From contig NZ_NGUO01000013.1 of the NCBI RefSeq assembly GCF_002206635.1, positions 1 through 64,000 of the forward strand: 64,000 nt of DNA, given 5' to 3'. Below, piece after piece: positions 2,772 through 19,956 of the stretch. Below the pieces are notes generated by a model, which was not told the DNA's origin, ran no database searches, and saw only the letters and a list, made by a program, of their open reading frames with translations. The stretch is from Polynucleobacter aenigmaticus. Its GTDB lineage: Bacteria; Pseudomonadota; Gammaproteobacteria; Burkholderiales; Burkholderiaceae. The translations under genes were made by a program, and so were the position numbers. Each line of letters starts with the position of its first letter. The first letter of the stretch is position 1.

Positions 2772-5168
2772 TTAGACCTTTCCAAGCGCCTTCAGAATCT
2801 TTTCGCAAGTGATAGGCTGGTCAAAGACCGCTGTATTAAATGGTGCCAGAGCATCATTAATTGCGTTCTGAACAGCCCCAGGAGCTCCAGCAGTACCAGC
2901 CTCACCGGCACCTTTTGCCCCCAATTTAGATGACTGGGTTGGAGTCTCTACGTGAGCGACTTCAATATCCGGCATCTCATAGGCCATCGGCACCAAATAG
3001 TCGGCCATGCTGCCATTACGTAGCAAACCACTATCGTCATAGAGGCACTCTTCGAAAAGGACACCACCAATACCTTGAACAATCGCGCCACGAACCTGCT
3101 CATCCACCAACATCGGATTTAATACGCGACCGCAATCCTCAACCGCCCAATGCTTTAAGAGTTTCACGAAACCAGTATCCGGATCCACTTCAACGTAAGA
3201 AGCCTGGACACCATTGGTAAAGATAAATGGGTATTCTTTTTGGGTGTAATGGCGAGTGACCATCAAATCCGCGGAGAATCCCACGGGCAAGGTATCCGTG
3301 CGGAAATAACCAATTCGACCAATCTCACTAAATGGCAAGAGCTGCTCGCCACTCGCCTTATCTAAAACGTGACCACGGCGAACTGACAGCTCTTGCGCCG
3401 GTCTATTCAAAATTGCACCCGCAAGCTTTAGGATATTTTCTTGCAATGCCTGACAAGCCAGTAGAACGGCCTCACCACCTACTCCCGCACCACGTGAAGC
3501 CCATGTGCCTCCGCCGTAAGGGGTCACATCTGTGTCGCCAGTAATGATGCGCACATCTTTAATAGAAAGACCAACAGCATCGGCGGCAATTTGCGCATAG
3601 ATCCCTTCAGTGCCTTGACCTTGCTCACCAACGCCAATCAATATCGATACAACGCCGCTTGGATCCAGTCTCGCAGAAGCGCCATCCTGAGAAGCAATAC
3701 GTGCTCCACCCACCCCATAAAATGCAGGACTTGGATTAGTCAACTCAATTAAGGTAGCAAAGCCAATGCCACGATAAATCCCTTTTTTTCGCAACTCAGC
3801 CTGTTCTTTACGCAAGGCCGAGTAATCCATCATCTTTTCAATAGTTCGTAGGCATTGTTCATGCGATAACACCTCCAACTTAATTCCAGAAATTCCAGAG
3901 CAAGGATAGGCATCATCGGGAATGACATTGCGCTTACGAAACTCCAGGGGATCCATCTGCAACTTTTGTGCAGCTAGATCTACTAGGCCCTCGGTCACCG
4001 CACAAGCAATCGGATGGCCTACGCCACGATATTGACAGGTGGGTGTTTTATTCTGAAATACAACATTCAGTTTGGCTCTGTAATGTTGGTGCTTGTAAGG
4101 CCCACCAACCAAATTCACCACTTGATTTCCCTCGATCGCACTAGTTCTGGGGAACATAGAGTATGGACCAATGGCCGTGAGATCGTCGATCTCAAACGCC
4201 AAGATATCACCCTCTTTATTAGCTGCAATACGCCCTTTAATCCTATGCTCACGTGCATGAATATCACTTGTGAAGGACTCAAGACGATCTGCAACAAATT
4301 TTACTGGGCGCTCCAACATGATTGCCAGGCCAACAGTTGCAAAGTCATCCGGATACGCGTGCACCTTAATGCCGAAAGAACCACCCACATCTTTACAAAT
4401 AACATGCACATCTGATTCAGATAAGCCAAATTGACGGCAATACAAATCCTGCATCATGTGGGGCGCTTGTTGCGAGTGATAAACCGTCAGACGACGATCC
4501 CCTGGATTGTAATCAGCAATTTGACAGCGAGGCTCCAAAGTAACGCCTGTATGTCGACCAAATCCAAAGGTCGCTTCGGCAACAATATCTGCCGTTGCAA
4601 ACACTTCATCTACCTGGCCCACATCTAAAGTACGAGTAAAGCAAAGATTGTCGCCAAGCTCTGGATGGATCACTGGTGTTTCTGCGTCCAGCGCTGTTTC
4701 CATAGAAACTACTGCAGGCAACTCTTCCCACTCAACATCGACTAACTGCAAAGCATCCTCTGCTTGAGCCCGGGTTTCAGCAACTACTGCAACTACCGGC
4801 TCACCCTGCCAACAGGCGCGATCAATGGCCAAAGCATATTGAGGAGCCGATTTCATACCGGCCAAGTGGTCAAGCGTGGCAACCCATGGCTTGCAAAGCT
4901 CAGCCATCTTTACACCATCAACGATAGCCAGAACACCTGGCATCTTGCTTGCTTGTTCAATATGAATTTTTCCAATCTTCATATGGGCTACTGGTGAACG
5001 CCAGTACACCACATGCCCCATTCTGGGCAATTGGATATCGTCGACATAAGTGCCCTGACCTTCTAGCAGTCGACGTGCTTTGTGTCGGGGCTCGCTATTA
5101 CCAATATAGCGTTGATCATTGGTTACTGGATCAAGGACCAATCCCTTGAGATCTGTTGGCTTATTCAT
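2772..5168 (-). CDS. Molybdenum hydroxylase large subunit (CoxL/xanthine dehydrogenase family)
   Basis: The 798-residue molybdopterin-binding subunit of a three-part hydroxylase, which uses water as oxygen donor. The N-terminal a/b-hammerhead domain (about 25-150) is followed by the two molybdopterin domains. Visible motifs are GGSFG at 262-266, QYRGVGHP at 379-386, and GAKGAGEAG with the expected catalytic Glu at 756. The 379-386 loop is not the AYXCSFR of proven carbon monoxide dehydrogenases, so CO oxidation is unlikely. It resembles the YRGxGxP form of other substrates' hydroxylases. Gene order on this strand is coxG-like, FAD, FeS and large subunit. The substrate is inferred from context only. 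Confidence 0.85.
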   Translation of the reverse strand: MNKPTDLKGLVLDPVTNDQRYIGNSEPRHKARRLLEGQGTYVDDIQLPRMGHVVYWRSPVAHMKIGKIHIEQASKMPGVLAIVDGVKMAELCKPWVATLDHLAGMKSAPQYALAIDRACWQGEPVVAVVAETRAQAEDALQLVDVEWEELPAVVSMETALDAETPVIHPELGDNLCFTRTLDVGQVDEVFATADIVAEATFGFGRHTGVTLEPRCQIADYNPGDRRLTVYHSQQAPHMMQDLYCRQFGLSESDVHVICKDVGGSFGIKVHAYPDDFATVGLAIMLERPVKFVADRLESFTSDIHAREHRIKGRIAANKEGDILAFEIDDLTAIGPYSMFPRTSAIEGNQVVNLVGGPYKHQHYRAKLNVVFQNKTPTCQYRGVGHPIACAVTEGLVDLAAQKLQMDPLEFRKRNVIPDDAYPCSGISGIKLEVLSHEQCLRTIEKMMDYSALRKEQAELRKKGIYRGIGFATLIELTNPSPAFYGVGGARIASQDGASARLDPSGVVSILIGVGEQGQGTEGIYAQIAADAVGLSIKDVRIITGDTDVTPYGGGTWASRGAGVGGEAVLLACQALQENILKLAGAILNRPAQELSVRRGHVLDKASGEQLLPFSEIGRIGYFRTDTLPVGFSADLMVTRHYTQKEYPFIFTNGVQASYVEVDPDTGFVKLLKHWAVEDCGRVLNPMLVDEQVRGAIVQGIGGVLFEECLYDDSGLLRNGSMADYLVPMAYEMPDIEVAHVETPTQSSKLGAKGAGEAGTAGAPGAVQNAINDALAPFNTAVFDQPITCEKILKALGKV

Positions 5169-5188
5169 AATCAGTTTTCTCAGTCCTC

Positions 5189-5698
5189 TTAAGCGTGAGC
5201 AACAACAGGTTTAATTTTTTCACCTTTGGCGCGAGCTTCAAGTACAGCCATGATGGCATCCACTATAGAGTGATAGCCAGTGCAGCGACAATAATTTCCA
5301 GAGATCCATTCGCGCACTTCTTCGCGAGTAGCCTTAGGCTGCTTTTCAACTAATTCTGAAGCAGCAAGTAACATCCCGGAAGAACAGAAACCACATTGCA
5401 TGGCGTTATGCCGCATAAAGGATTCCTGCAGGTCTGCTAATGCGCCGCTTTTAGTTAAGCCCTCAACTGTCTCCACCACACATCCATCAGCCTGCACAGC
5501 CAAATACAAACAGCCACGAATAATTTGCCCATCAACCTTAACGGTGCAGGCGCCACAAGCACCCTGCTCGCAACCTAAATGTGGACCCTTTAGATGAAGA
5601 TCTTCTCGTAAAAAATCGACCAAATGGCGACGCGGCTCAATCTCAGCGTTCACCACTGATCCATTAACGGTCATCGTAATTTTTTTCTTTAAGCTCAT
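5189..5698 (-). CDS. Molybdenum hydroxylase [2Fe-2S] small subunit (CoxS-like)
   Basis: A 169-residue electron-transfer subunit. The N-terminal plant-type ferredoxin domain has Cys43, Cys48, Cys51 and Cys63 (GCEQGACGACT). The C-terminal helical domain has Cys102, Cys105, Cys137 and Cys139 (CGFC, CRC). This is the standard double-cluster arrangement that carries electrons from the molybdenum site to FAD. It sits between the FAD and large-subunit genes, with 20 bases to the latter. Confidence 0.93.
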   Translation of the reverse strand: MSLKKKITMTVNGSVVNAEIEPRRHLVDFLREDLHLKGPHLGCEQGACGACTVKVDGQIIRGCLYLAVQADGCVVETVEGLTKSGALADLQESFMRHNAMQCGFCSSGMLLAASELVEKQPKATREEVREWISGNYCRCTGYHSIVDAIMAVLEARAKGEKIKPVVAHA

Positions 5699-5740
5699 TT
5701 CAATCTCCGAACTCGGTTTATCTTTTTATGTCTTGATTTC

Positions 5741-6595
5741 TTAAGCAATTAGATGCTTCAAGCCACGCTCCAACAAAACACCGATTAAATGTTGTTTTGT
5801 TTCTACGCTATTCGTAATATCAGCAATGGCCTCAATTTCGCCTCTTGCAACAGCAACGGCACTGGCAATTAATTCTTCAGTAAGTGGCTTACCATTTACC
5901 AATGCTTGCGCCTTGAGAGCCATGACTGGCGTGGCACCAACTGAAAAGAAAGTAAATGCGCATTCACTAAGAACGGTCCCTTGCTTTTGCGCCACTAATG
6001 CAGCACCAGCAACGGCGTAATCACCATGACGACGTGCTAGCTCATGGAAATAAAATACTTGATTGGTATTAGCAACTGAAATTTCTGTAGCCACTAGAAT
6101 TTCATTGGGCTCCAAAGAAGTCGTATACAGATCAATAAAAAAATCTTGCGCTGAAATTCGGCGTTCTCCATCTGGACCCGCAATCAACATGGTTGCATTG
6201 AGAGCCAGACTGCATGCCGGCCATTCAGCAGCCGGATCACCATAAGCTAAAGATCCACCCCAGGTTCCTAAATTACGAATCGCGCGATGGGCAATATGGG
6301 GTACTGCAGCCTTCAGAAGTGGTGCATGCTGCGCAATCAACTTGGAATCTTCAATTTCGGTGTGAGTTACCAAAGCACCGATACGTAATTGATCGCCAAT
6401 GACTGAAATGCCTTTAAGCTCATCCAAATTAGTGATATCAATCAGAATGCTAGGCTCAGAAAGGCGTAGATTCAGCGTAGCTAATAGCGTCTGACCACCT
6501 GCGATCAAGCGTGCATCCTCACCAGCCTCAGCCAGCAAAGCTAAGGCCTCACTTAGAGCCTTTGGTTTTGCATAATCAAATGCTGCTGCTTTCAT
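5741..6595 (-). CDS. Molybdenum hydroxylase FAD-binding medium subunit (CoxM-like)
   Basis: A 284-residue FAD subunit. AGGQTLLATLNLRL is the first FAD pyrophosphate motif and TWGGSLAYGDPAAEWP the second, as in CoxM/KdhM-type proteins, followed by the CO_deh_flav_C domain. The reading frame is open to 6718, but the ATG at 6595 is preceded by a strong GGAGGAG site and begins MKAAAFDY, the normal family start. The longer version would overlap the upstream CoxG-like gene. It passes electrons from the iron-sulfur clusters to the terminal acceptor. Confidence 0.92.
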   Translation of the reverse strand: MKAAAFDYAKPKALSEALALLAEAGEDARLIAGGQTLLATLNLRLSEPSILIDITNLDELKGISVIGDQLRIGALVTHTEIEDSKLIAQHAPLLKAAVPHIAHRAIRNLGTWGGSLAYGDPAAEWPACSLALNATMLIAGPDGERRISAQDFFIDLYTTSLEPNEILVATEISVANTNQVFYFHELARRHGDYAVAGAALVAQKQGTVLSECAFTFFSVGATPVMALKAQALVNGKPLTEELIASAVAVARGEIEAIADITNSVETKQHLIGVLLERGLKHLIA

Positions 6596-6635
6596 TGCGT
6601 CTCCTCCACTACTTTTATATTTATAGGGCCGAGCT

Positions 6636-7112
6636 TTACTCGGCCTGTGCGTCTGACTCCAGTGGCGCCACTTCACCACCCAATTCTTTTGCAAATCGTT
6701 GAAAAAAATCATCTGCAATTTTTTTGGCAGAAGCGCTAATTAAGCGCCCACCAATTTGTCCTAGCTTTCCCCCTATGGAGGCTTCTGTCGTATAAGAAAT
6801 CAAAGTTCCACCTTCAGCAGCCTTCAATTCAACGCGAGAACGCCCCTTAGCGAACCCTGCCGCACCACCTGAGCCCTCAAATGCCATCGAACAGGATTGA
6901 TCTGGAATGACATCGCTCAAAAGGAGTTTTCCAGCAAATCTCGCTCTAACAGGGCCAATCTTGAACATGACCTTGGCATGAACCTCTTCCGGAGAGATAC
7001 GGCTGATTTCTTCACATCCTGGGATGGACTTCGCTAGAACATCAATATCATTCAACCCCCTCCACACGTCAGGGATTGGAGCGGCAATCAGCTGCTCGCC
7101 ATTTAGTTCCAT
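6636..7112 (-). CDS. CoxG-like SRPBCC-domain protein
   Basis: A 158-residue START/SRPBCC-fold protein. The N-terminal MELNGEQLIAAP and DVWRGLNDIDVLAKSIPGCE match the CoxG family encoded with molybdenum hydroxylases; members have been proposed to help attach the enzyme to the membrane or to bind hydrophobic ligands such as quinones. It is the first gene of the minus-strand hydroxylase operon, with an upstream GGAG ribosome site. The 111-base gap to the divergent TetR gene holds the likely promoters and operator. Confidence 0.88.
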   Translation of the reverse strand: MELNGEQLIAAPIPDVWRGLNDIDVLAKSIPGCEEISRISPEEVHAKVMFKIGPVRARFAGKLLLSDVIPDQSCSMAFEGSGGAAGFAKGRSRVELKAAEGGTLISYTTEASIGGKLGQIGGRLISASAKKIADDFFQRFAKELGGEVAPLESDAQAE

Positions 7113-7154
7113 TGCATCTCCTTGGGGTTTGTACGAATAGAGTGTTATCTACCA

Positions 7155-7167
7155 ATTGTTCAACAAT
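7155..7167. promoter_or_regulatory. Candidate TetR operator palindrome
   Basis: ATTGTTCAACAAT is a perfect 13-base palindrome in the 111-base region between the divergent hydroxylase operon and the TetR gene. Its position suits autoregulation and control of both directions. The assignment to this regulator is inference. Confidence 0.45.
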
Positions 7168-7223
7168 GTACCATTATTTAACTTTTGGTCAATAAGGCCA
7201 AATTCGGATAAACCCTGACAACA

Positions 7224-7928
7224 ATGAGTTTTACACAAGACCGCATCTCCAAAAACAGTGCCACTGTAGAAGTAGCTGAAGCTCCTGCGCCTGCTCGCCG
7301 CAGAATGAGTACGACGGAACGCAAGCGCCAAATACTAGATCGCGCAATTCAGTACTTTGCAAAGCATGGGATTGATGGGCAACTCAGAAACTTAACAAAA
7401 GGCCTTGGTGTTACGCATACCCTGCTTTATCACTACTTCCCCACCAAAGACGCTTTAATTAAGGCGGTCTATGAAGACGTGTTTGAGTCACGCTGGAAGC
7501 CTGAGTGGGAGCTATTGCTAGACGATAAAACCCTATCCCCCGAAGAAAAGCTAAATGCGTTTTATATCGACTACTCGAATACCGTCCTTACTTATGACTT
7601 CGTTCGTATTCTGATTTTCTCAGGGCTAAGTGATCATTCCATTAGTGACCGATTCTTTGAATTACTACGTGATCGTTTATTACCTCGTCTCATTCGTGAA
7701 ACCCGCAAACACTGTGGTCGCAGCTTACGCAGCAAACCCTCCCAGCGGGAGTTGGAATTTTTGATGGGCTTACATGGCGGCATCTTTTATATCGGGATGC
7801 GCCGCTGGATCTATGGTCAAGCTATTTATGACGCCGGCAACCCCAATACAGAGCAAGAGATTATTCAAGATCGTATTAGCTCCTACCTCCATTCAGCAAA
7901 AATTTTGTTTACTACTGGTAAAAAATAA
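7224..7928 (+). CDS. TetR/AcrR-family transcriptional regulator
   Basis: A 234-residue DNA-binding repressor or activator. The N-terminal helix-turn-helix domain is at roughly residues 34-80 (RQILDRAIQYFAKHGIDG; GVTHTLLYHYFPTKDAL), followed by an all-helical ligand domain. A roughly 30-residue N-terminal tail rich in Ala, Pro and Arg precedes the domain, which is long for the family. Divergent placement from the molybdenum hydroxylase operon, and position as first gene ahead of the VOC and monooxygenase genes, suggest it senses the pathway substrate. The ligand is unknown. Confidence 0.9.
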   Translation: MSFTQDRISKNSATVEVAEAPAPARRRMSTTERKRQILDRAIQYFAKHGIDGQLRNLTKGLGVTHTLLYHYFPTKDALIKAVYEDVFESRWKPEWELLLDDKTLSPEEKLNAFYIDYSNTVLTYDFVRILIFSGLSDHSISDRFFELLRDRLLPRLIRETRKHCGRSLRSKPSQRELEFLMGLHGGIFYIGMRRWIYGQAIYDAGNPNTEQEIIQDRISSYLHSAKILFTTGKK

Positions 7929-7929
7929 C

Positions 7930-8388
7930 ATGACGAACTTAAGCCTAAACCACTTCTCAATCCGTAGTTTAGAGATTGAGCAAACTACCAAGTTCTATAG
8001 TGAAGTATTGGGCCTCGCGGTTGGGCCTCGCCCTGAATTTCCATTCCCTGGGGTCTGGCTATACAGCGGCGATGAAAACGACTGGGCTAATGCAGTGTTG
8101 CATTTGATTGCAATTGATAAGAACGATCCCAACGGTCTAAAGCAGTATCTTGGCGAACGTGATCCTAGTTCGCTCTATGGCTCGGGGGCAGTGGATCACA
8201 TCGCCTTCTTCGCCACGGGTCTAGAAGCCAAGCTTGCTCTGCTGGATAAGTTGGGCGTGCCCTGCAGACAGCGCACGGTTCCCGTCCTCAAACTACATCA
8301 ACTCTTTTTGGATGACCCTAATGGCATCGTCATTGAATTGAATTACCCTGCTGCCGAAAAAGCAGTACTTGATGCCAAGGGTGCATAA
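7930..8388 (+). CDS. VOC-family metalloenzyme (glyoxalase/ring-cleavage dioxygenase-like)
   Basis: A 152-residue single-chain VOC protein with two beta-alpha-beta-beta-beta modules. Candidate metal ligands are His8 (LNHFS), His58 (VLHLIA), His90 (VDHIAF) and Glu136 (IVIELNY), which fits a functional metal site. I chose the ATG at 7930, directly after the TetR stop; the same frame is open to 7774 inside the TetR gene, but that start would overlap by more than 150 bases. VOC proteins include glyoxalases, isomerases and extradiol dioxygenases; the reaction here cannot be told. Tight linkage to the monooxygenase suggests it acts on the same compound. Confidence 0.85.
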   Translation: MTNLSLNHFSIRSLEIEQTTKFYSEVLGLAVGPRPEFPFPGVWLYSGDENDWANAVLHLIAIDKNDPNGLKQYLGERDPSSLYGSGAVDHIAFFATGLEAKLALLDKLGVPCRQRTVPVLKLHQLFLDDPNGIVIELNYPAAEKAVLDAKGA

Positions 8389-8394
8389 ATAAAG

Positions 8395-9633
8395 ATGGCC
8401 AAAATTCTTGTTATTGGCGGATCCCTTGGAGGCTTATTTGCGGCAAATATATTGCTACGCCAAGGTCATGATGTCACCTTGCTGGAAAAGGCCATTGGCT
8501 CGTTAGATGGACGAGGCGCTGGGATCGTGACTCATGACGCGCTAGCAGATGCTTTGCGGGAAGCTGGCATTGCCGTTGATGACAGCCTGGGTGTCGCTGT
8601 ATCTAAGCGCGTTACCCTGGGTGCTGATGGCGAGAGTTTAGGTGAAATGCCGCTATCACAAATATTGACCTCATGGAGTCGCCTTTATCACCTACTGAAA
8701 GAGAATTTTCCAAGCGAGCGCTACTTGCAGGGTAAGAATGTAAAGACCGTGAGTCAGGATGCCAGCAGTGTTCAGGTGACTTGCGAAGATGGCAGCTCTT
8801 ATGAGGCGGAGCTACTGATTGCTTCGGATGGCATACGCTCAGCGGTTCGCGCGCAAGTGGCACCAGAGATTCAACCTGAATATGCGGGATATATTGCATG
8901 GCGAGGCGTTTGTGATGAAAGTCATTTATCCAATTACACCCTAGATACCCTCTTCAATTATTTTGGATTCTGCCTGCCAAACGGCGAGCAGATGCTGGGC
9001 TATCCAGTTGCGGGATCTGGCAATGACACTAGGCCAGGTAAACGACGTTACAACTTTGTTTGGTATCGACCCGCATCCGAAGATGGCGAACTAGTAAAAC
9101 TTCTTACTGATGCCGATGGTCATTACTATCCAACTGGCATCCCTCCGCTGAAGGTGTCATGGAAACATATTGCTGAAATGCGTAAAGTTGCCCGTGACAT
9201 TCTGGCGCCTCAATATGCAGAAATTCTAGAGAAGACAGCCTCTCCGTTCTTGCAAGCTATTTACGACGTTCGTTCAGACCAAATTGTCTTTGGCAGAATT
9301 GCACTAATGGGTGATGCCGCTTTTGTTGGTCGGCCCCACGTCGGCATGGGTGTTACCAAAGCGGGAGATGAGGCAATAGTGATTGCACGCCATATCGCTC
9401 AATTTGGCGCGACTCCAGCTGCGCTTGACGCCTATAGCAATGAGCGACTTACACTTGGGCAGCAGGTTGTTGCAAGAGCACAATATTTGGGGCGTTACAT
9501 GCAAGCGCAAGGTAGCAAAGGTACAAGAGATAGTAATAGCCTCCGCAGAAATGCAGATACGGTAATGGCCGAAACAGCCATTGATATCAGCACTTTGTTA
9601 GTAGAAGGAAAAGCAGTTCCAGAGTCACTTTAA
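8395..9633 (+). CDS. FAD-dependent aromatic monooxygenase, 2,6-dihydroxypyridine hydroxylase-like
   Basis: A 412-residue class A flavoprotein hydroxylase. The Rossmann motif GGSLGGLFAA is at 8-17, the second NAD(P)H/FAD motif ASDGIRSAVR at 143-152, and GDAAFVGRPH at 306-315. The YAGYIAWRG segment (163-171), the RPH motif and the overall layout recall 2,6-dihydroxypyridine 3-monooxygenase of nicotine-degrading bacteria; HpxO-like urate hydroxylases are more distant relatives. The resemblance is from memory and the substrate is inference. It starts six bases after the VOC gene, in the same operon. Confidence 0.82.
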   Translation: MAKILVIGGSLGGLFAANILLRQGHDVTLLEKAIGSLDGRGAGIVTHDALADALREAGIAVDDSLGVAVSKRVTLGADGESLGEMPLSQILTSWSRLYHLLKENFPSERYLQGKNVKTVSQDASSVQVTCEDGSSYEAELLIASDGIRSAVRAQVAPEIQPEYAGYIAWRGVCDESHLSNYTLDTLFNYFGFCLPNGEQMLGYPVAGSGNDTRPGKRRYNFVWYRPASEDGELVKLLTDADGHYYPTGIPPLKVSWKHIAEMRKVARDILAPQYAEILEKTASPFLQAIYDVRSDQIVFGRIALMGDAAFVGRPHVGMGVTKAGDEAIVIARHIAQFGATPAALDAYSNERLTLGQQVVARAQYLGRYMQAQGSKGTRDSNSLRRNADTVMAETAIDISTLLVEGKAVPESL

Positions 9634-9738
9634 TAAAATTGAGATGTAGAGTTGAGTATTACAAGAAACATTGAGATAAGATTTATGAAATAAAAAAGTA
9701 TTCTTATTAATAAACTGTTTTAAATGGAGGAGATAACC

Positions 9739-10974
9739 ATGAAACAAAAAGTAATGAATCAAACAAGAAGAACGATGTTGATCGGCGGGGCGACTGCAGC
9801 AAGCGCTCCACTTTGGATGAATATGGCAAGTGCCCAATCTGAAACCATCAAGATTGGCTTTCCAACACCATTAACGGGCCCTTTCTCTGCCGAAGCGCAG
9901 GATCAAGTTAAGGCTGCTGAGTTAGCTATTAAAGAATTTAATGATGCCGGTGGTTTTAATGGTCGCAAAGCTGAACTCCTGGTTCGTGATGACAAACTTA
10001 ATCCCGGTGAAGCTGCAACACGTACGCTTGAGTTGATTGAAAAAGATAAGGTGAATTTTGTTGTGGGCTCACTCTCTGCCGCAACTCAACTCTCTATTAA
10101 TGCTGTTTGTAAAGAGCGTAAGGTTCTCTTTAATTCAATTAGCCAGTCGGATGCGATTAATGAAGCGAAGGATTGGAGTGTTTACACATTCCACGAAGCA
10201 CTTAATCCAACCATGACTGCTGGTGCAGTTGCACGCTACTCCATCCCCCGTTTTGGTAAAAAGATTGTATTTTTAACGGCAGACTATGCTTATGGTCACG
10301 AGATGGTGCGAGCATTTGAACGTGCCGGCAAAGAAATGGGTGCCACCACATTGGCAGATATTCGTCATCCACTAGGCGCCTCTGATTACTCGGCATTTTT
10401 ACCGCGCATCAAAGCCTTGAACCCAGATATCTTGGTTCTCTGCAATTTTGGCCGCGACCTAGTGAATGCCGCTAAGCAATGTACCGACTTTGGCTTGAAA
10501 TCTAGCATGAAGATTGTGACACCAGTCCTGCTCTACACATCCCGTCTTGCTGGTGGATCAGAAGCCTTTGAAGGCATTATCGGCGGTACATCCTACTACT
10601 GGGGTCTTGAGGATCGCATCCCAACAGCAAAAATATTTAATGATGCATTCCGAAAAATGTACAACGGCTCAGTACCATCCGATTACGGTGCACTAGGCTA
10701 CGCCGGCGTAAAGAGTGTGCTGGCCTCTATCAAGATTGCAAAATCTACTGAGACTTTGAAAGTTATTACTGCAATGGAGAATCTTAAGTACGACTGGTAC
10801 AAGGGTCCTGAGTACTACCGCAAATGTGATCACCAGGCAGTTCAAACGGTCATCATCGTTGAATCCAAGTCAAAGAACATGAAAGACAAATATGACGTCT
10901 TTAATATCCTGACGATTGAACCGACTACCGAGAAGAATATGCGTAGTTGCGCAGAGCTAGGCCACAAGGCTTAA
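9739..10974 (+). CDS. Branched-chain amino acid-type ABC transporter substrate-binding protein
   Basis: A 411-residue periplasmic binding protein of the LivJ/Peripla_BP_6 family. The N-terminus has a twin-arginine-like signal (TRRTMLIGG, then an Ala-rich stretch ending near ASAQS). The mature part starts ETIKIGFPTPLTGPFS, with two periplasmic lobes. The start at 9739 follows a strong GGAGGA site; an in-frame ATG at 9724 lies upstream of it. Such proteins also bind aromatic acids, amides and other carboxylates, so the ligand is open. It precedes livHMGF and is separated from them by a terminator-like hairpin. Confidence 0.9.
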   Translation: MKQKVMNQTRRTMLIGGATAASAPLWMNMASAQSETIKIGFPTPLTGPFSAEAQDQVKAAELAIKEFNDAGGFNGRKAELLVRDDKLNPGEAATRTLELIEKDKVNFVVGSLSAATQLSINAVCKERKVLFNSISQSDAINEAKDWSVYTFHEALNPTMTAGAVARYSIPRFGKKIVFLTADYAYGHEMVRAFERAGKEMGATTLADIRHPLGASDYSAFLPRIKALNPDILVLCNFGRDLVNAAKQCTDFGLKSSMKIVTPVLLYTSRLAGGSEAFEGIIGGTSYYWGLEDRIPTAKIFNDAFRKMYNGSVPSDYGALGYAGVKSVLASIKIAKSTETLKVITAMENLKYDWYKGPEYYRKCDHQAVQTVIIVESKSKNMKDKYDVFNILTIEPTTEKNMRSCAELGHKA

Positions 10975-11016
10975 ATCTGAAATTTCAAGGCAGATTCTCT
11001 GATTTGCCCTGGGTCC

Positions 11017-11050
11017 CTCCCCTGATGCCGATGGTTGAAGGGGAGTTTTT
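11017..11050 (+). terminator. Terminator/attenuator between binding-protein and permease genes
   Basis: CTCCCCT (11017-11023) pairs with AGGGGAG (11039-11045) across a 15-base loop, followed by TTTTT. It lies in the 88-base gap after the binding-protein gene and ends 13 bases before the permease start. Partial read-through would give more binding protein than membrane components. Confidence 0.65.
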
Positions 11051-11062
11051 CTGAGTACATAT

Positions 11063-11947
11063 ATGACCGGTCTTACATTTGAACTTCTATGCATGCAGTT
11101 GCTGACAGGGATTGCCTTGGGCAGCATCTATGCACTTCTAGCCCTAGGCTTATGCCTTATTTTTGGCATGCTCAACGTAGTGAACTTCGCACATGGCGCC
11201 TTCTTCATGGTTGGCGCATTCATGGGCGTCTACTTTCTGGGCGTAACAGGCAACTTTTGGTTTAGCTTAATCCTTACCCCAATCGCTACCGGCGCCCTTG
11301 GATTGCTCACTGAGCGATTCCTAGTGCGACCTCTTTATGGTCGCGGCATTGACTACCCGCTACTCCTCACTTTTGGATTGTCTTATGTATTGATTGAGGC
11401 AATGCGCGTGACATTTGGTATTGAAGGCCTCCCATCCATCACTCCCGATGAACTTAAAGGTACTCTTGATGTTGGATTTGGCTTCTTCCCTAAGTACCGT
11501 CTCTTCTTGATTGCAGCTACAGCCGTGATTATTTTTGCGGTCTGGTTCTTTATCCAAAAGACGCGTTATGGCCTCATCATTAAAGCTGGTGCTGCTGACC
11601 AGGAGATCGTCAAAGTACTTGGTGTAGACATTGCTAAGGTATGGCTAATGGTATTTGGTCTTGGTTGTGCGATTGCCGGCCTCTCCGGAATACTGGCCTC
11701 ACCCACACGCTCCGTTAACCCAGAGATGGGTATTCCCATCTTGGCGGAGTCCTTTGTTGTGACAGTGGTTGGTGGCATGGGATCACCTGTGGGGGCGGTT
11801 GTTGCGGGTCTATTGGTTGGCGTGGTCTATAGCCTCACCTCCCTCTTTTTTCCAGATCTTTCCGAACTATCTATTTTTGTTTTGATGGCGGTAGTCCTCT
11901 TAATTCGACCTCAAGGTTTATTTGGTAAAGCGGGGGCAATGGGTTAA
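11063..11947 (+). CDS. livH: Branched-chain amino acid-type ABC transporter permease LivH
   Basis: A 294-residue inner-membrane permease with about eight hydrophobic segments. The N-terminal LLTGIALGSIYALLALGL and NVVNFAHGAFFMVGAF are hallmarks of LivH. It pairs with LivM to form the channel for the ligand delivered by the upstream binding protein. The ribosome site is weak (GAG in CTGAGTACATAT), so expression may depend on the adjacent hairpin region. Confidence 0.92.
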   Translation: MTGLTFELLCMQLLTGIALGSIYALLALGLCLIFGMLNVVNFAHGAFFMVGAFMGVYFLGVTGNFWFSLILTPIATGALGLLTERFLVRPLYGRGIDYPLLLTFGLSYVLIEAMRVTFGIEGLPSITPDELKGTLDVGFGFFPKYRLFLIAATAVIIFAVWFFIQKTRYGLIIKAGAADQEIVKVLGVDIAKVWLMVFGLGCAIAGLSGILASPTRSVNPEMGIPILAESFVVTVVGGMGSPVGAVVAGLLVGVVYSLTSLFFPDLSELSIFVLMAVVLLIRPQGLFGKAGAMG

Positions 11948-11960
11948 TCCCCCAATATTT

Positions 11961-12920
11961 ATGAAATCATTTTTCCATCTCATTGCACGTCATCGCGTGT
12001 TGGCAAGCAGCCTTTTCTTGATGGTCTTCCCGTTCATCATGCCGTATGAGGCGCTTGCAATCAATATCCTGATCTTTGGCTTATTTGCCATGGGATTCAA
12101 CCTCCTATTTGGTTATATGGGTTTGTTGTCCTTCGGACATGCAGCCTTTTTAGGAATCGGTAGCTACCTCACCGGGATTAGCATCGTTCATTATTCCCTG
12201 CCGTGGGGTACTGCAATTCTGGTAGGCGTAATTGGGGCAGCCATTGGTGGGCTCATCATGGGTTTCTTGGCTATTCGTACCAGAGGCATCTACTTCTCGA
12301 TGGTCACCCTCGCCTTAGGTCAAATTGTTTTCTATGGCTTTTATAAGGCGGAAAGTTTGACGGGCGGAGAGAATGGTTTGCGTGGCGTGCGAGTTGACTC
12401 TTTCAATATTCTGGGTATTCCAGTGGATTTTCTAAATCCACTTGTCAAGTACTACATCATTCTCTTCTTTGTGGTCATTGCAATTTGGCTGATCTCGCGC
12501 ATTCTCAACTCTCCATTAGGTGCGGTGATGGAAGCTATTCGTGAGAATGAAAAACGTGCAGCCGCCTGCGGATTTGATGTAACACGTACAAAGCTCCTAG
12601 TATTCGTATTGTCGGCTGCAATCTGTGGATTAGCCGGCTCATTACGCGCCTTGCATCTCTCCATTGTGCCGATTGACTCCCTGCACTACCTGCAATCAGG
12701 ACAGGCGGTAATGATGAGTATTTTGGGTGGTATGGGCACTTTCTTTGGTCCATTTTTCGGCGCCGCTGTCATGCTGTACTTGGAAGATGTGGTAACTACC
12801 TTTACTAGACATTGGATGGCCGTTATTGGACTAGTCTTTATGTTCTTTGTATTGTTCTTCCCGAAAGGAATCTGGGGAACTATCTTGAGCAAGCTAAACA
12901 TGAATCAGGATACAAAATAA
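11961..12920 (+). CDS. livM: Branched-chain amino acid-type ABC transporter permease LivM
   Basis: A 319-residue membrane permease. LLFGYMGLLSFGHAAFLGIG and the loop with VTLALGQI and FTGGENGLRG-like residues (LTGGENGLRG) are typical of LivM. I chose the ATG at 11961, 13 bases past livH; the frame extends to 11922 inside livH. Its stop overlaps the livG start (TAATG), which suggests translational coupling. Confidence 0.92.
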   Translation: MKSFFHLIARHRVLASSLFLMVFPFIMPYEALAINILIFGLFAMGFNLLFGYMGLLSFGHAAFLGIGSYLTGISIVHYSLPWGTAILVGVIGAAIGGLIMGFLAIRTRGIYFSMVTLALGQIVFYGFYKAESLTGGENGLRGVRVDSFNILGIPVDFLNPLVKYYIILFFVVIAIWLISRILNSPLGAVMEAIRENEKRAAACGFDVTRTKLLVFVLSAAICGLAGSLRALHLSIVPIDSLHYLQSGQAVMMSILGGMGTFFGPFFGAAVMLYLEDVVTTFTRHWMAVIGLVFMFFVLFFPKGIWGTILSKLNMNQDTK

Positions 12921-13675
12921 TGAGTAGCCCAAATCAAACCCCCATCCTTGAGGCTCGAAATGTCAGCAAGAGTTTTGGGAAATTCAAAGCCTTGCAGAAT
13001 GTCTCCACTACGTTTATGCCAGGAAGCCTCACGGCCATCATTGGCCCTAATGGCGCAGGCAAGAGCACTTTCTTTAACATACTCAGTGGAGCCTTCCCCC
13101 CAACAAGCGGTCAAATCTTATTTAACGGTAAAGATATTACCGGCATGCAACAGCATGAATTTGCACGTATTGGCATCTCCAAGAGCTTCCAAATTACCAA
13201 TGTGTTTAAGCAGTTGACCGTTCATGAGAATGTTCGTGTAGCGGCGCAAATGGAAACTGCTCGGTATAACTTTCTGCGTAATGCGAAAAGCTACCCAGAG
13301 CCTATCGAACTTGCGGATCAACTCTTACGTCGCGTCAACCTAGAACATCTGCGCAATAAGAAAACAGGTGATCTGGCGCACGGGCAACAACGCGCCCTCG
13401 AAATTGCCATGGCTCTAGCCTGCAACCCTAGCCTCCTATTGCTTGATGAGCCAACTGCTGGAATGTCTCCTGAAGAGACGCTCGTGATGATGGATCTCAT
13501 TCGCACACTTGCCAATGAAAGAACTGTTATTTTGGTTGAGCACAAAATGAAACTCATCATGGGCTTATGTAAGCGAATCATTGTTCTTCATCATGGCGAG
13601 TTTTTGGCTGAAGGCACTCCAGAAGATATTCAAAATAATGCTGAGGTACGTCGTGTGTACCTAGGCCAAGGTTAA
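12920..13675 (+). CDS. livG: ABC transporter ATP-binding protein LivG
   Basis: A 251-residue ATPase. Walker A is GPNGAGKST near residue 41, the signature is LAHGQQRALEIA (LivG proteins typically have this degenerate form), and Walker B is LLLLDEPTAGMSPEE. The ATG at 12920 overlaps the livM stop by one base; the longer frame back to 12812 lies inside livM. It powers import together with LivF. Confidence 0.93.
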   Translation: MSSPNQTPILEARNVSKSFGKFKALQNVSTTFMPGSLTAIIGPNGAGKSTFFNILSGAFPPTSGQILFNGKDITGMQQHEFARIGISKSFQITNVFKQLTVHENVRVAAQMETARYNFLRNAKSYPEPIELADQLLRRVNLEHLRNKKTGDLAHGQQRALEIAMALACNPSLLLLDEPTAGMSPEETLVMMDLIRTLANERTVILVEHKMKLIMGLCKRIIVLHHGEFLAEGTPEDIQNNAEVRRVYLGQG

Positions 13676-13688
13676 TGAAGGTTTATAT

Positions 13689-14393
13689 ATGCTGCGCGTA
13701 GAAAATTTAAATGCCTGGTATGACCGTAGCCACGTTCTTCAAGGCATCTCACTAGAGGTAAACAAAGGTGAAATTGTTACCTTAATGGGCCGAAATGGTG
13801 CCGGTAAAACTACTACCCTGCGCTCCTTAATGGGCTTGCTCCCAAAAAGAGAAGGGAAAGCCTCAATCGATGGCACTTCTTTCCTAGATCTCGCCGCCCA
13901 TGAGCGCTATCACCTTGGCTTGGCATACGTCCCAGAGGATCGCCGCATTGTTCCGGGCCTCACTGTCAAAGAAAATCTAGAGCTGGGCGTGATTTCCAAG
14001 AAAAATCATGGCGACATGAGTGCTATGGTCGATGAAATCGCCGAAACCTTTCCGCGCCTCAAAGAAAGATTGCATCAGGATGGCACATCCATGTCTGGAG
14101 GTGAGCAGCAGATGCTAGCTATTGCTAGAGCCATGATTGCCAAGCCTAAGGTCATTCTGCTAGATGAGCCATCAGAAGGCATCATGCCGGTCCTAGTAGA
14201 GGAAATGTTTGAATTATTTTCCAATCTCAAGCAACAGGGTCTAACCATCCTACTGGTTGAACAAAACGTACAGCAAGCACTAAAAATTTCGGACCGTGCC
14301 TATATTCTTGATCAAGGCGAAATTGTCTTTCACGATACCGCTCAAAATCTCTTAAACAACGATGAGATTCAACAGAAGTATTGTGCTGTCTAA
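13689..14393 (+). CDS. livF: ABC transporter ATP-binding protein LivF
   Basis: A 234-residue ATPase. Walker A is GRNGAGKTT near residue 35, the signature is MSGGEQQMLAIARAM, and Walker B is VILLDEPSEG, which is the normal LivF form. It starts 13 bases after livG and is the last gene of the transporter block. The next gene is convergent, with 18 bases between stops that hold only a short GCCTTTTAAGGC palindrome. Confidence 0.93.
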   Translation: MLRVENLNAWYDRSHVLQGISLEVNKGEIVTLMGRNGAGKTTTLRSLMGLLPKREGKASIDGTSFLDLAAHERYHLGLAYVPEDRRIVPGLTVKENLELGVISKKNHGDMSAMVDEIAETFPRLKERLHQDGTSMSGGEQQMLAIARAMIAKPKVILLDEPSEGIMPVLVEEMFELFSNLKQQGLTILLVEQNVQQALKISDRAYILDQGEIVFHDTAQNLLNNDEIQQKYCAV

Positions 14394-14411
14394 TGCCTTT
14401 TAAGGCTTGAC

Positions 14412-14915
14412 TTAGATGATATGAAGCCAGTGTCCTAGCTGGTGCCAAAAACTGTTTGGTACCAGAGTTAAGAGCCAAGTCATGGTGAGGTAGCGCAGTA
14501 GCTTGCCTACTGTCATATATCCTAAGCACGGCAGCCAAGGCAACCTTAGCCACCCCGCTGCTAGACACAGAGGATCACCGAACCCAGGCAGCCAAGAAAG
14601 AAGTAGCATCTTTGGGCCACGCTCTTCAAGCCAACGCTGCATCCTGCTATTGGTAGGCCCCTTGAGAGATTCAAAGCTATTGCGACTCATTAATCCTAGC
14701 CACCAATCCAGCATGCCTCCCAAAGTATTACCGATGGTTGCAACCATAATGGCCGTCCAATATAAGTCGGGATTTAAGGAGATGTAGCCAAACAGCATAG
14801 GCTCCGAACCCATCGGCAGCAAAGTTGCAGAGATAAAGGCGCTGATAAATACAGCTGGCAAACCAATCGATGGCATCCCAAAAAAGTCAAAGAATTGACT
14901 GAGTATTTGCTCCAT
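14412..14915 (-). CDS. YqaA/DedA-family (SNARE-associated) membrane protein
   Basis: A 167-residue membrane protein. Segments include LPAVFISAFISATLLPMGSE near the N-terminus and GNTLGGMLDWWLG around residue 60-72, matching the YqaA subgroup of the DedA superfamily, followed by the charged RWLEERGPKMLLLSWLPGFGD region. DedA proteins take part in lipid carrier recycling and membrane homeostasis; the role of this branch is not established. It stands alone between oppositely directed genes and probably does not belong to the catabolic locus. Confidence 0.82.
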   Translation of the reverse strand: MEQILSQFFDFFGMPSIGLPAVFISAFISATLLPMGSEPMLFGYISLNPDLYWTAIMVATIGNTLGGMLDWWLGLMSRNSFESLKGPTNSRMQRWLEERGPKMLLLSWLPGFGDPLCLAAGWLRLPWLPCLGYMTVGKLLRYLTMTWLLTLVPNSFWHQLGHWLHII

Positions 14916-15104
14916 TAAGCAAGGACTCCGGGCAGACTAACAGTAAATGACTTATACATCTTCTTAGTATGCCCCAACAGATATCCAGCCCAAGAATGCG
15001 GGTCAGAACCACCGCCCATTACCGGTCGCCCAGCAATTCTGAAATCTTGCTTAAACTGTAGGTATTCCCATCTTTATTAACTCCTTTTAAGCGCTGATAT
15101 ACAC

Positions 15105-16274
15105 ATGAATCACCCCATCCCAAAGCCTGACCAATATCAAGATATGCGCGAAGCCTTGCGTGACCTCTGCGGAAGTTTTGATTCCGCCTATTGGCAAAAA
15201 GTTGATCACGAGCGCGCTTATCCAGAAGCCTTTGTGGATGCCATGGCACAAGCTGGCTGGTTAGCTGCCTTAATTCCGGAGGAATATGGTGGCTCTGGTT
15301 TAGGTCTTGCCGAGGCCTCTGTGATCATGGAAGAAATTAACTTTGCTGGCGGCAATGCGGGCTCTTGCCATGGTCAGATGTACAACATGGGCACTTTGCT
15401 GCGCCATGGTTCTGACGCCCAGAAAAAACTCTACCTCCCTAAAATTGCTACTGGCGAATTACGCCTACAGTCGATGGCAGTAACTGAACCAAGCACTGGT
15501 ACCGACACCACCAAACTTAAAACCACCGCCCTCAAAAAGGGTGACAAATATATTGTGAATGGTCAGAAGGTTTGGATCTCTCGTATTCAGCACTCTGATT
15601 TGATGATTCTGCTGGCACGCACCACACCGCTAACAGAGGTAAAGAAAAAATCAGAAGGTATGTCGATTTTTATCGTTAACCTAAAAGATGCCATTGGCAA
15701 AGGCATGGATATCCAGCCAATCGCCAATATGGTGAATCATGAAACTAATGAAGTCTTTTTCGATAACTTAGAGATCCCTGCTGAAAATTTGATCGGTGAA
15801 GAAGGTCAAGGATTTAAATACATCCTAGATGGCCTCAATGCAGAGCGCACCCTCATTGCCGCGGAATGTATTGGTGATGCTTATTGGTTTGTCGATAAGG
15901 CACGACGTTATGCAAATGAACGCGTGGTATTTGATCGTCCGATTGGCAAAAACCAAGGCATCCAATTTCCAATTGCAGACTCTTATATCGAAACTGAAGC
16001 GGCTAACCTCATGCGCTTTAAGGCATGCGAGCTCTTCGATGCCAAACAGCCTTGCGGTGCTGAAGCCAATATGGCGAAGTACCTTGCTGCCAAAGCCTCT
16101 TGGGAGGCAGCCAACGTTTGTCTTCAGACGCATGGCGGTTTCGGTTTTGCCAATGAATATGATGTCGAACGCAAGTTCCGTGAAACACGCCTCTATCAAG
16201 TGGCGCCAATTTCGACTAACTTAATTTATTCCTATATAGCTGAGCATGTCCTCGGCCTCCCACGCTCCTTCTGA
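15105..16274 (+). CDS. Acyl-CoA dehydrogenase family protein
   Basis: A 389-residue flavoprotein with the N-terminal helical, middle beta (AVTEPSTGTDTT near 125-136) and C-terminal helical domains. It probably introduces a double bond into an acyl-CoA. The usual MCAD-type catalytic Glu position near the C-terminus (YEGT) reads YQVAPIST here. Glu247 in LNAERTLIAA sits where isovaleryl-CoA dehydrogenase carries its base and is the better candidate. A 189-base leader precedes it, so it likely has its own promoter. It is followed 11 bases later by a CoA-transferase, suggesting joint activation and oxidation of an organic acid. Confidence 0.88.
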   Translation: MNHPIPKPDQYQDMREALRDLCGSFDSAYWQKVDHERAYPEAFVDAMAQAGWLAALIPEEYGGSGLGLAEASVIMEEINFAGGNAGSCHGQMYNMGTLLRHGSDAQKKLYLPKIATGELRLQSMAVTEPSTGTDTTKLKTTALKKGDKYIVNGQKVWISRIQHSDLMILLARTTPLTEVKKKSEGMSIFIVNLKDAIGKGMDIQPIANMVNHETNEVFFDNLEIPAENLIGEEGQGFKYILDGLNAERTLIAAECIGDAYWFVDKARRYANERVVFDRPIGKNQGIQFPIADSYIETEAANLMRFKACELFDAKQPCGAEANMAKYLAAKASWEAANVCLQTHGGFGFANEYDVERKFRETRLYQVAPISTNLIYSYIAEHVLGLPRSF

Positions 16275-16285
16275 TAGGCCTCATC

Positions 16286-17470
16286 ATGAGCATTCGTCCA
16301 TTGGATGGCATTACTGTTGTTGCACTAGAGCATGTGATTGCTGCACCCTTCTGCACGCGTCAATTGGCCGACTTGGGGGCGCGCATTATCAAGATCGAAC
16401 GCCCAGGGGATGGAGATTTTGCCCGAGGCTATGACACCCAAGTAGAAGGACTTTCCTCCCACTTCGTTTGGGTGAATCGATCAAAAGAAAGTCTCACTCT
16501 CGACCTCAAGCAAGAATCTGCATTAGCAATATTGAGGGGCTTGTTAAAAACCGCTGATGTCTTCATACAAAATCTTGCTCCAGGTGCAGCAGCTCGCATG
16601 GGGCTGACTGCTGAAGTATTGCAAAAGGATAATCCTGGACTCATTCTTTGCTCTATCTCTGGCTACGGTAACGATGGCCCCTATCGCGACAAAAAAGCTT
16701 ATGACCTGTTGATTCAGAGCGAAGCAGGCTTCCTATCCATTACCGGCACACCAGAGACGCCAAGCAAGGCCGGCAACTCCATAGCCGATATTGCCGCAGG
16801 GATGTATGCCTATACCAATATTTTGGCTGCGCTATTGCAAAGAGGAAAGACTGGTAAGGGCACTGTCATCGACATCTCCATGCTCGAAGCCTTAAGCGAA
16901 TGGATGAGCTTTCCAATGTATTACGCGTACAAGGGTGCCAACCCGCCATCCAGAAGTGGCGCTTCACATGCCACCATTTATCCCTACGGTCCATTCATGG
17001 CTGGTGACGGCAAAACAGTGATGCTGGGACTACAAAACGAACGGGAATGGGCGCAGTTTTGCGCGTTGGTTTTAGAAAACCCCGCTCTGGCACAGGATGA
17101 TCGCTTTGATCGAAACTTTAAGCGCAATGAAAAACGCACCGAACTTCTGAAAATCATTGACGCTTGCTTTAGTCAAATGACGTCCGAGCAATTAATTGCA
17201 CGATTAGAAAAAGCCCAAATAGCTAATGCTCATCTGAATGACATGGAAGGCCTTTGGAAGCATGAGCAACTGAAAGCGCGTAATCGCTTCACAGAGGTGG
17301 GCACACCGAATGGCGCTATTACCGCGTTGTTGCCGCCAGGACTAAATGACAGTTACGACTATCGTATGGATCCCGTTCCTGCGGTAGGAGAACATACCAA
17401 TGCCATTCTCTCGGAATTGGGAATATCTTCCGCTGAAATTGAGGTGCTAAGAGCCGAAGGTGCAATTTAA
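16286..17470 (+). CDS. CaiB/BaiF (class III) CoA-transferase
   Basis: A 394-residue family III CoA-transferase that moves CoA between acids through an aspartyl-CoA anhydride. The N-terminal LDGITVVALEHVIAAPFCTR, the GARIIKIERPGDGDFAR segment and Asp168 (IADIAAGMYA, the likely catalytic Asp) are typical. It is co-directional with the acyl-CoA dehydrogenase gene and probably makes its substrate. The specific acid is unknown. Its stop overlaps the convergent cardiolipin synthase stop by four bases. Confidence 0.9.
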   Translation: MSIRPLDGITVVALEHVIAAPFCTRQLADLGARIIKIERPGDGDFARGYDTQVEGLSSHFVWVNRSKESLTLDLKQESALAILRGLLKTADVFIQNLAPGAAARMGLTAEVLQKDNPGLILCSISGYGNDGPYRDKKAYDLLIQSEAGFLSITGTPETPSKAGNSIADIAAGMYAYTNILAALLQRGKTGKGTVIDISMLEALSEWMSFPMYYAYKGANPPSRSGASHATIYPYGPFMAGDGKTVMLGLQNEREWAQFCALVLENPALAQDDRFDRNFKRNEKRTELLKIIDACFSQMTSEQLIARLEKAQIANAHLNDMEGLWKHEQLKARNRFTEVGTPNGAITALLPPGLNDSYDYRMDPVPAVGEHTNAILSELGISSAEIEVLRAEGAI

Positions 17471-19891: not shown

Positions 19892-19956
19892 AGGTCAAAA
19901 TAGGGAAATTGTTTGCATTTATCCTATTTTGCCATCCCCTTGCTAGAATCAAGCCC

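Follow-up and report, generated by a model that had tools for sequence, protein, structure and literature searches.

The lower pyridine pathway of nicotine degradation and the C-8 oxidation of caffeine are described systems in which a molybdenum hydroxylase is combined with a monooxygenase dependent on flavin adenine dinucleotide (FAD). The fate of 2,3,6-trihydroxypyridine in nicotine degradation was called unclear by a 2018 review (PMC6122326); a cyclase of the type encoded on the nicotine plasmid pCZY has been proposed to hydrolyse the N1-C6 bond of this compound, and a similar enzyme, HpoH, is cited there as acting on trihydroxypyridine in Rhodococcus (PMC6214936). For the caffeine pathway, the monooxygenase TmuM is described as resembling HpxO (PMC4408171). 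Here we describe a locus from Polynucleobacter aenigmaticus, which lies in a stretch of 64,000 nucleotides (the window, contig NZ_NGUO01000013.1, to which all positions refer) of a 2.13 Mb genome in 37 contigs, and which encodes a three-subunit molybdenum hydroxylase (CoxLSM), an FAD-dependent monooxygenase (FMO) and a Liv-type ATP-binding cassette (ABC) importer. Few bacterioplankton of fresh water are as abundant as this genus, and one well-studied strain is described, in the account given by PMC3308952, as having no mono- or dioxygenases for the aromatic rings of humic substances.

The locus is a self-contained island of 12 genes, positions 2772-14393, which is real, sharply bounded and behaves as one functional unit. 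It is predicted to import a small N-heteroaromatic compound, probably with a pyridine-type ring, to hydroxylate it twice and to open the ring, a reading to which we assign a probability of about one half. Judged from sequence, an N-heteroaromatic substrate appears best supported, and the pyridine branch appears more likely in this genome than the purine branch. The original prediction had proposed a catabolic locus for an (N-hetero)aromatic compound. Comparison of the large subunit and of the FMO with characterised enzymes, as it had advised, gave quinoline 2-oxidoreductase (Qor) and 2,6-dihydroxypyridine hydroxylase (DHPH) as the best matches of solved structure, and the pair is conserved, all of which agrees with that proposal, but two of the genes that it had counted belong to the flank. 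The features of the island and of its flanks are as follows.

2772..5168, minus strand: molybdopterin (MoCo) subunit of CoxL type, 798 amino acids (PF01315/PF02738/PF20256)
5189..5698, minus strand: CoxS-type subunit with 2x[2Fe-2S], 169 amino acids (PF00111 + PF01799)
5741..6595, minus strand: CoxM-type FAD subunit, 284 amino acids from the chosen ATG (PF00941 + PF03450)
6636..7112, minus strand: CoxG-like protein, 158 amino acids (PF06240, 91.8 bits)
7145..7178, no strand: candidate TetR operator block in the divergent intergenic region (inverted repeat 7155-7167)
7224..7928, plus strand: TetR-family regulator, 234 amino acids (PF00440)
7930..8388, plus strand: putative metalloenzyme of vicinal oxygen chelate (VOC) fold, 152 amino acids (PF00903, 23.4 bits, cut-off 20.6)
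8395..9633, plus strand: DHPH-like FAD-dependent aromatic-ring monooxygenase (FMO), 412 amino acids (NF005566, 457 bits, cut-off 333)
9724..10974, plus strand: Liv-type substrate-binding protein (SBP), 416 amino acids (PF13458; best PDB match 3i09)
11063..11947, plus strand: LivH-type permease (PF02653)
11961..12920, plus strand: LivM-type permease, start chosen (PF02653)
12920..13675, plus strand: LivG-type ATPase, start chosen (PF00005 + PF12399)
13689..14393, plus strand: LivF-type ATPase, at the right end of the island (PF00005)
1866..2642, minus strand: left flank, outside the island, 3-hydroxybutyrate-dehydrogenase-like short-chain dehydrogenase/reductase (SDR; NF009093, 364.7 bits, cut-off 258)
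14412..14915, minus strand: right flank, outside the island by gene order in island-less genomes, VTT-domain protein
15105..16274, plus strand: right flank, outside the island by the same gene order, acyl-CoA dehydrogenase
16286..17470, plus strand: right flank, outside the island by the same gene order, class III CoA-transferase (CaiB)

The minus-strand arm (CoxLSM and CoxG) diverges from the plus-strand arm (TetR, VOC, FMO and LivJHMGF) over 111 bp; in the latter, TetR and VOC are separated by 1 bp, VOC and FMO by 6 bp, and the other genes by up to 90 bp. All frames are open across their expected Pfam domains, the start of CoxM being our choice in an open frame that extends to 6718. The genes named in the original prediction are all present as open frames in the places given for them and their identities stand, but its span of 2772..17470 reaches too far to the right, where the variable block stops at LivF (14393), and the VTT-domain gene on the minus strand inside that span had gone unmentioned.

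The limits of the island are seen in genomes that lack it. Five CoxL-less Polynucleobacter genomes were read, picked among single-contig genomes carrying the acyl-CoA dehydrogenase, and in all five the SDR and VTT genes are adjacent, 45-87 bp apart by match ends, the VTT gene being followed by the acyl-CoA dehydrogenase, the CoA-transferase and a phospholipase D (PLD)-type gene, as in the window. The original prediction had taken the dehydrogenase and the CoA-transferase for pathway genes. A wider locus, in which these two enzymes perform later steps of the pathway, would fit their position beside the island in most Polynucleobacter loci read and the enrichment of the dehydrogenase with CoxL (122 of 151 genomes have it, 71 of the 76 with CoxL versus 51 of the 75 without; nominal p 7e-5). 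However, since the same gene order occurs without the island, the two genes are flank and their place in the pathway falls; moreover, one genome (G011) has the island without either gene, and the closest loci outside the genus (L177-L179) show neither in the sequence covered, so that the wider locus is very improbable. The VTT gene follows LivF in 14 of the 18 Polynucleobacter loci first read, of the others one being cut by a contig end and three having other surroundings. Four loci (L048, L051, L053 and L176) contain a second, divergent CoA-transferase (30-33% identical) between the VTT and dehydrogenase genes.

The unity of the island was surveyed in 151 Polynucleobacter genomes, with CoxL accepted at E <= 1e-150 and FMO at E <= 1e-60. 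CoxL was found in 76 genomes and FMO in 78; both are present in 75 (one of them decayed) and neither in 72. The two genes lie on one contig in 73 of the 75, with a gap of 2000-3965 bases, and on separate contigs in two drafts, and their co-occurrence gives a Fisher p of 3e-38, which is nominal, as related genomes are not independent. There are four exceptions: in G076 the contig is cut inside CoxM, G110 and G146 carry VOC-FMO in a different cluster, and G116, a genome 73% complete, has CoxL only. CoxL, VOC and FMO occur together in all 18 loci first read, 15 of which retain TetR and, as far as the sequence reaches, the same Liv genes, the surroundings of L054-L056 being different from those of the other loci. 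The FMO of the window is 93% identical to Polynucleobacter proteins. In the closest loci outside the genus (L177-L179, from G332 and G256 of one family and G411 of another) the order CoxLSM/TetR-VOC-FMO-SBP-LivHMGF is kept; CoxG is found in the G332 and G256 loci and was not found in that of G411 (L179). The linkage assumed in the original prediction is thus conserved, both in the genus and in these three loci.

One of the genomes, G129, contains a damaged island (L189, 495000-514900, on a single contig of 1.7 Mb). Eight of its 12 genes (CoxL, CoxM, VOC, FMO, SBP, LivH, LivG and LivF) are split by tblastn into two or three pieces and CoxG, TetR, CoxS and LivM are each matched in a single piece; the FMO carries stops. 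Of the flank genes, SDR, VTT, dehydrogenase and CoA-transferase are complete, and PLD is partial. The island may be decaying there as a block, and general genome decay may explain it; the endosymbiont species of Polynucleobacter is known for many pseudogenes, according to PMC5018217.

The molybdenum hydroxylase is a three-subunit member of the xanthine oxidase family, with intact MoCo, FAD and 2x[2Fe-2S] domains and the catalytic glutamate. CoxL of the window has the motif KGAGE, and KG[AV]GE is present in 107 of 108 CoxL sequences, the remaining one being cut short. CoxS contains nine cysteines (43, 48, 51, 63, 73, 102, 105, 137 and 139), enough for two clusters. The best solved matches of CoxL are the large subunit of Qor (458 bits) and a mycobacterial carbon monoxide dehydrogenase (CODH, 441 bits), followed by another CODH (342 bits) and 6-hydroxypseudooxynicotine dehydrogenase (322 bits). 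A second relative of CoxL, 46-58% identical to that of the window, occurs in seven genomes (G003, G025, G070, G102, G150, G173 and G174).

The score against the mycobacterial enzyme, together with the appearance of the trait in a table for the genus, would suit an aerobic CODH that provides energy, but the active-site loop argues against such a function. CoxL of the window reads QYRGVGHP where three CODH rows have AYxCSFR and Qor has AYRGVGF, and the cysteine loop of CODH occurs in none of the 108 aligned CoxL sequences, the window included; their loops are CQYRAVGHP (75), CQYRGVGHP (29), SQYRAVGHP (3) and GMYRGVGIP (1). No NCBIfam model exceeds its cut-off for CoxL, the CODH models giving 444-471 bits versus cut-offs of 950-991. 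With the active-site cysteine loop replaced, CoxL falls outside the aerobic CODH group, and its genes belong to one unit with those for a ring monooxygenase and an ABC importer; we give an energy-yielding CODH next to no credence. One of the strains scored for the trait, MWH-HuW1, is presumably P. sinensis. In Table 2 of PMC5018217, two of four Polynucleobacter strains are scored positive for ‘carbon monoxide dehydrogenase’, and strain MWH-HuW1 is scored there without it. The island probably represents the genes that such tables list under this name.

The original prediction had noted the lack of an XdhC/CoxF-like factor, which is correct for the window, but a profile search found a single XdhC_C match of the genome on another contig; this protein scores best, although below cut-off, with the model of an XdhC-family aldehyde-oxidoreductase factor.

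The FMO exceeds the cut-off of PRK07236 (457 versus 333 bits), and its best solved match is DHPH (2vou, 174 bits), the next solved chain giving 60 bits. It is thus a member of the PRK07236 sequence group, with DHPH as the nearest characterised solved member. Across 56 FMO sequences, that of the window included, a constancy of 97% or more is reached by 19 residues when H, R, D, E, Y, W, K, N and Q are considered, and 15 of the 19 are the same in the DHPH protein DhpH; the common residues include R and H of an RPH motif. In one locus (L182, from G432) a single in-frame stop lies within an otherwise full-length FMO match.

A molybdenum hydroxylase and an FAD monooxygenase could also act on purines or methylxanthines by C-8 oxidation, the molybdenum enzyme yielding a urate, the FMO serving as a urate hydroxylase in the manner of HpxO or TmuM and a 5-hydroxyisourate-like product being processed or decaying. 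Two Methylobacterium plasmids speak for this option, as they carry CoxMSL (CoxL 65% identical), FMO (43-45%), Liv genes, CoxG and a cupin adjoining two uraH genes, uraD, an Asp/Glu/hydantoin racemase and an NCS1 nucleobase transporter, with a PuuE-like gene ~6 kb from the FMO on both. The same logic is found in the Cdh-TmuM-TmuH-TmuD sequence of the caffeine pathway, as outlined in PMC4408171. In the genome studied here, however, there are no matches to PF00576 (5-hydroxyisourate (HIU) hydrolase) or PF09349 (2-oxo-4-hydroxy-4-carboxy-5-ureidoimidazoline (OHCU) decarboxylase), each positive in 4 of 14 controls, and none to a PuuE-like protein in a search run without a positive control. With the model of HpxO the FMO scores 98 bits (cut-off 500), well below its score on PRK07236, and so does not qualify as an HpxO-like urate-type monooxygenase. 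We regard the purine reading, the main alternative, as unlikely for this island. One of the Methylobacterium plasmids comes from a coffee root, and the two loci (L033 and L065) are a candidate methylxanthine locus.

The step that follows the FMO was approached through the genes around it. Loci were collected at 40% identity for FMO and 55% for CoxL, with 40% coverage, and counted apart from the window and 31 short loci (L001, L003-L025 and L149-L155) that either fall within the window or are represented by longer versions. Among 67 FMO loci, a VOC gene lies within 2.5 kb in 39, a cupin gene in nine and both in none. The remaining 19 have neither in that range; 15 of these (L156, L159 and L161-L173) cover only ~1.5 kb beside the FMO, a VOC piece being visible in L156 at a laxer cut-off, and L061-L064 are longer loci with other neighbours. 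All 33 loci with both CoxL and FMO contain one of the two, VOC in 26 (18 of them Polynucleobacter) and cupin in seven, never both, and the FMO tree requires at least two exchanges between VOC and cupin. Because two unrelated small metal-binding folds interchange beside one monooxygenase, this step is likely to act on the FMO product, and we infer that it opens the ring.

The VOC protein has four residues, H8, H58, H90 and E136, which are invariant in 20 sequences, and its structure model, with a mean predicted local distance difference test score (pLDDT) of 83.5, matches VOC folds. The four residues fit glyoxalases and VOC-fold (type I) extradiol dioxygenases alike. Their spacing presumably corresponds to the metal ligands of glyoxalases or, with H58 as a second-sphere histidine, to those of extradiol dioxygenases.

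The original prediction had also remarked on the lack of a ring-opening hydrolase, which holds throughout the genome for the four families scanned, namely PF00576, PF09349, PuuE-like proteins and the PF04199 cyclases, the last without a match in the genome and positive in 8 of 14 controls. In relatives such families are frequent near the same genes. The 106 CoxL loci contain FMO in 33, a PF04199-type cyclase in 27 and a PuuE-like protein of the deacetylase family in 29. One of the cyclases, in the single pair compared, is 32% identical to the pCZY cyclase sited between kdhC and dhpH. For the PuuE-like protein, PuuE allantoinase is the best named solved match, ranked behind an unnamed chain; its family also contains cyclic-imide hydrolases. 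In two Polynucleobacter genomes, G003 and G025, the distance between the PuuE-like gene and the FMO is ~100 bp.

Some VOC-FMO pairs have other companions. In the CoxL-less genome G110 (L174) the pair adjoins an alpha/beta hydrolase of 390 amino acids, which has 2,6-dihydroxypseudooxynicotine (DHPON) hydrolase as its best solved match (102 bits) and is 28% identical to the plasmid enzyme; the cluster also has a CocE/NonD hydrolase, a flavin reductase and TctC. The pair of G146 (L175) occurs without a molybdenum hydroxylase, together with a PuuE-like gene, an amidase and frames length-matched to those of G110, among them a frame of 391 amino acids at the position of the G110 hydrolase. Burkholderia pyrrocinia has, a number of genes after VOC-FMO, an Amidohydro_2 protein as well as genes for cytochrome c, (2Fe-2S) and molybdopterin-binding proteins, which represent another type of molybdenum enzyme.

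Chemistry outside N-heterocycles would require the molybdenum enzyme to oxidise an aldehyde or another group, the FMO to hydroxylate a phenolic acid and the VOC protein, with residues that suit an extradiol enzyme, to act as an ordinary extradiol-type dioxygenase. Quinoline and dihydroxypyridine, on the contrary, are the substrates of the best solved matches of the two enzymes, and the amide- and imide-opening families around CoxL relatives (the PF04199-type and PuuE-like proteins, in 27 and 29 of the 106 loci) suit lactam or imide rings. We regard a substrate outside the N-heterocycles as unlikely.

For the preferred N-heteroaromatic substrate, the following sequence of steps is proposed. The Liv importer would take up the substrate, and CoxLSM would place a water-derived oxygen on a ring carbon adjoining the nitrogen, giving a 2,6-dihydroxypyridine-like (cyclic-imide-like) compound. 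CoxLSM itself would be matured by the one XdhC of the genome, with CoxG possibly aiding assembly or membrane attachment. The FMO, with NAD(P)H and O2, would add a third hydroxyl, as DHPH does in forming 2,3,6-trihydroxypyridine, and the VOC protein, through its His/His/His/Glu site, would cleave or hydrolyse the trihydroxylated ring, a task likely taken in relatives by the cupin, the PF04199 cyclase or the PuuE-like hydrolase instead. The products would enter central metabolism via a putative amidase, and TetR, bound to the shared intergenic repeat, would control both arms.

The regulator has no NCBIfam model over cut-off. The 34-base block at 7145-7178 has one exact match in the window and none in 100 shuffles allowing up to three mismatches. 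It contains the exact inverted repeat ATTGTT-C-AACAAT at 7155-7167, for which two matches are found with one mismatch allowed, against a shuffle mean of 0.27. The block is retained, with changes, in 19 aligned sequences, which include the window and L177/L178 from another family, and appears to be a candidate TetR operator.

Several observations weigh against the proposed pathway. The FMO and DhpH are far apart, with 31% identity, and in the FMO tree (drawn up with nine Polynucleobacter rows and L176 left out) DhpH is a long-branched outgroup with an end branch of 2.8, so that the tree does not settle the FMO substrate; the term DHPH-like in the original prediction therefore agrees with the best solved match but denotes a remote kinship. 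CoxL is nearly as near to the mycobacterial CODH as to Qor. This FMO is present in only 10 of 80 named CoxL loci, a lower bound, like the other counts there, as contig ends truncate many of these loci, and consequently the pathway cannot be deduced from the hydroxylase by itself; conversely, the VOC-FMO pair occurs without CoxL too. The VOC model resembles glyoxalases, antibiotic-binding proteins and dioxygenases alike, so that its assignment to ring opening rests on context. PF04199, the family of the known trihydroxypyridine candidates, is absent from the genome, and the scan of four families there brought up no ring-opening amidohydrolase or amidase. The DHPON-hydrolase-like protein of G110 scores 96 bits with acylaminoacyl peptidase versus 102, and the uraH, uraH and uraD genes that adjoin the Methylobacterium FMO loci (L033 and L065) point to purines there.

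Near the island, the window contains the C-terminal part of an IS3-family transposase at its left end (51-473). A TupB/ModB-like ABC permease and ATPase are encoded at 19909-21355, with TupB as the best named model (170 bits, below the cut-off of 320), and could mediate the uptake of tungstate or molybdate; they lie close to the molybdoenzyme genes. A formate dehydrogenase gamma subunit (21663-22718, above cut-off) is a further molybdo- or tungstoenzyme partner nearby.

If the proposed reading is true, an all-or-nothing island, present in 75 of 151 genomes (one decayed), would separate Polynucleobacter species by diet, would allow dissolved organic matter that contains nitrogen to be used and would correct the carbon monoxide dehydrogenase label in species descriptions. 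The exchange of VOC and cupin beside one monooxygenase provides two small candidate openers of trihydroxylated N-heterocycles. More tentatively, the island may represent a new N-heteroaromatic pathway, present in half of the sampled Polynucleobacter species and identical with the recorded CODH trait, in which trihydroxypyridine-type rings are opened by a single-domain VOC protein that a cupin can replace, a role otherwise known only from an unrelated cyclase family.

Among the known systems, the lower pyridine pathway of nicotine (Kdh, DHPON hydrolase, DHPH, PKC and omega-amidase; Paenarthrobacter pCZY) is alike in having a three-subunit molybdenum hydroxylase and a PRK07236/DHPH-type FAD monooxygenase in one locus, and relatives of PKC and DHPON hydrolase occur near the same gene families in other species. 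It differs in that the island FMO and CoxL are 31% and 30% identical to its enzymes, that its PF04199 cyclase (PKC), the proposed ring opener, has no match in the genome of the island, and that the island has a VOC protein beside the monooxygenase as well as a Liv importer, CoxG and TetR. The caffeine C-8 oxidation pathway (CdhABC, TmuM, TmuH and TmuD; Pseudomonas sp. CBB1), with Cdh and TmuM compared by their published description in PMC4408171, likewise has a three-subunit molybdenum hydroxylase acting before an FAD monooxygenase, but the genome of the island is without a HIU hydrolase or OHCU decarboxylase match and its FMO belongs to PRK07236 and not to HpxO. Aerobic CODH, CoxSML(G), shares the subunit plan and a CoxG-like protein, whereas CoxL of the island is without the CSFR loop and is encoded within a catabolic island. 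The best solved match of CoxL is quinoline 2-oxidoreductase, QorMSL, whose large subunit, which was the part compared, agrees with the island enzyme in its YRGVG loop as well as in its KGxGE motif.

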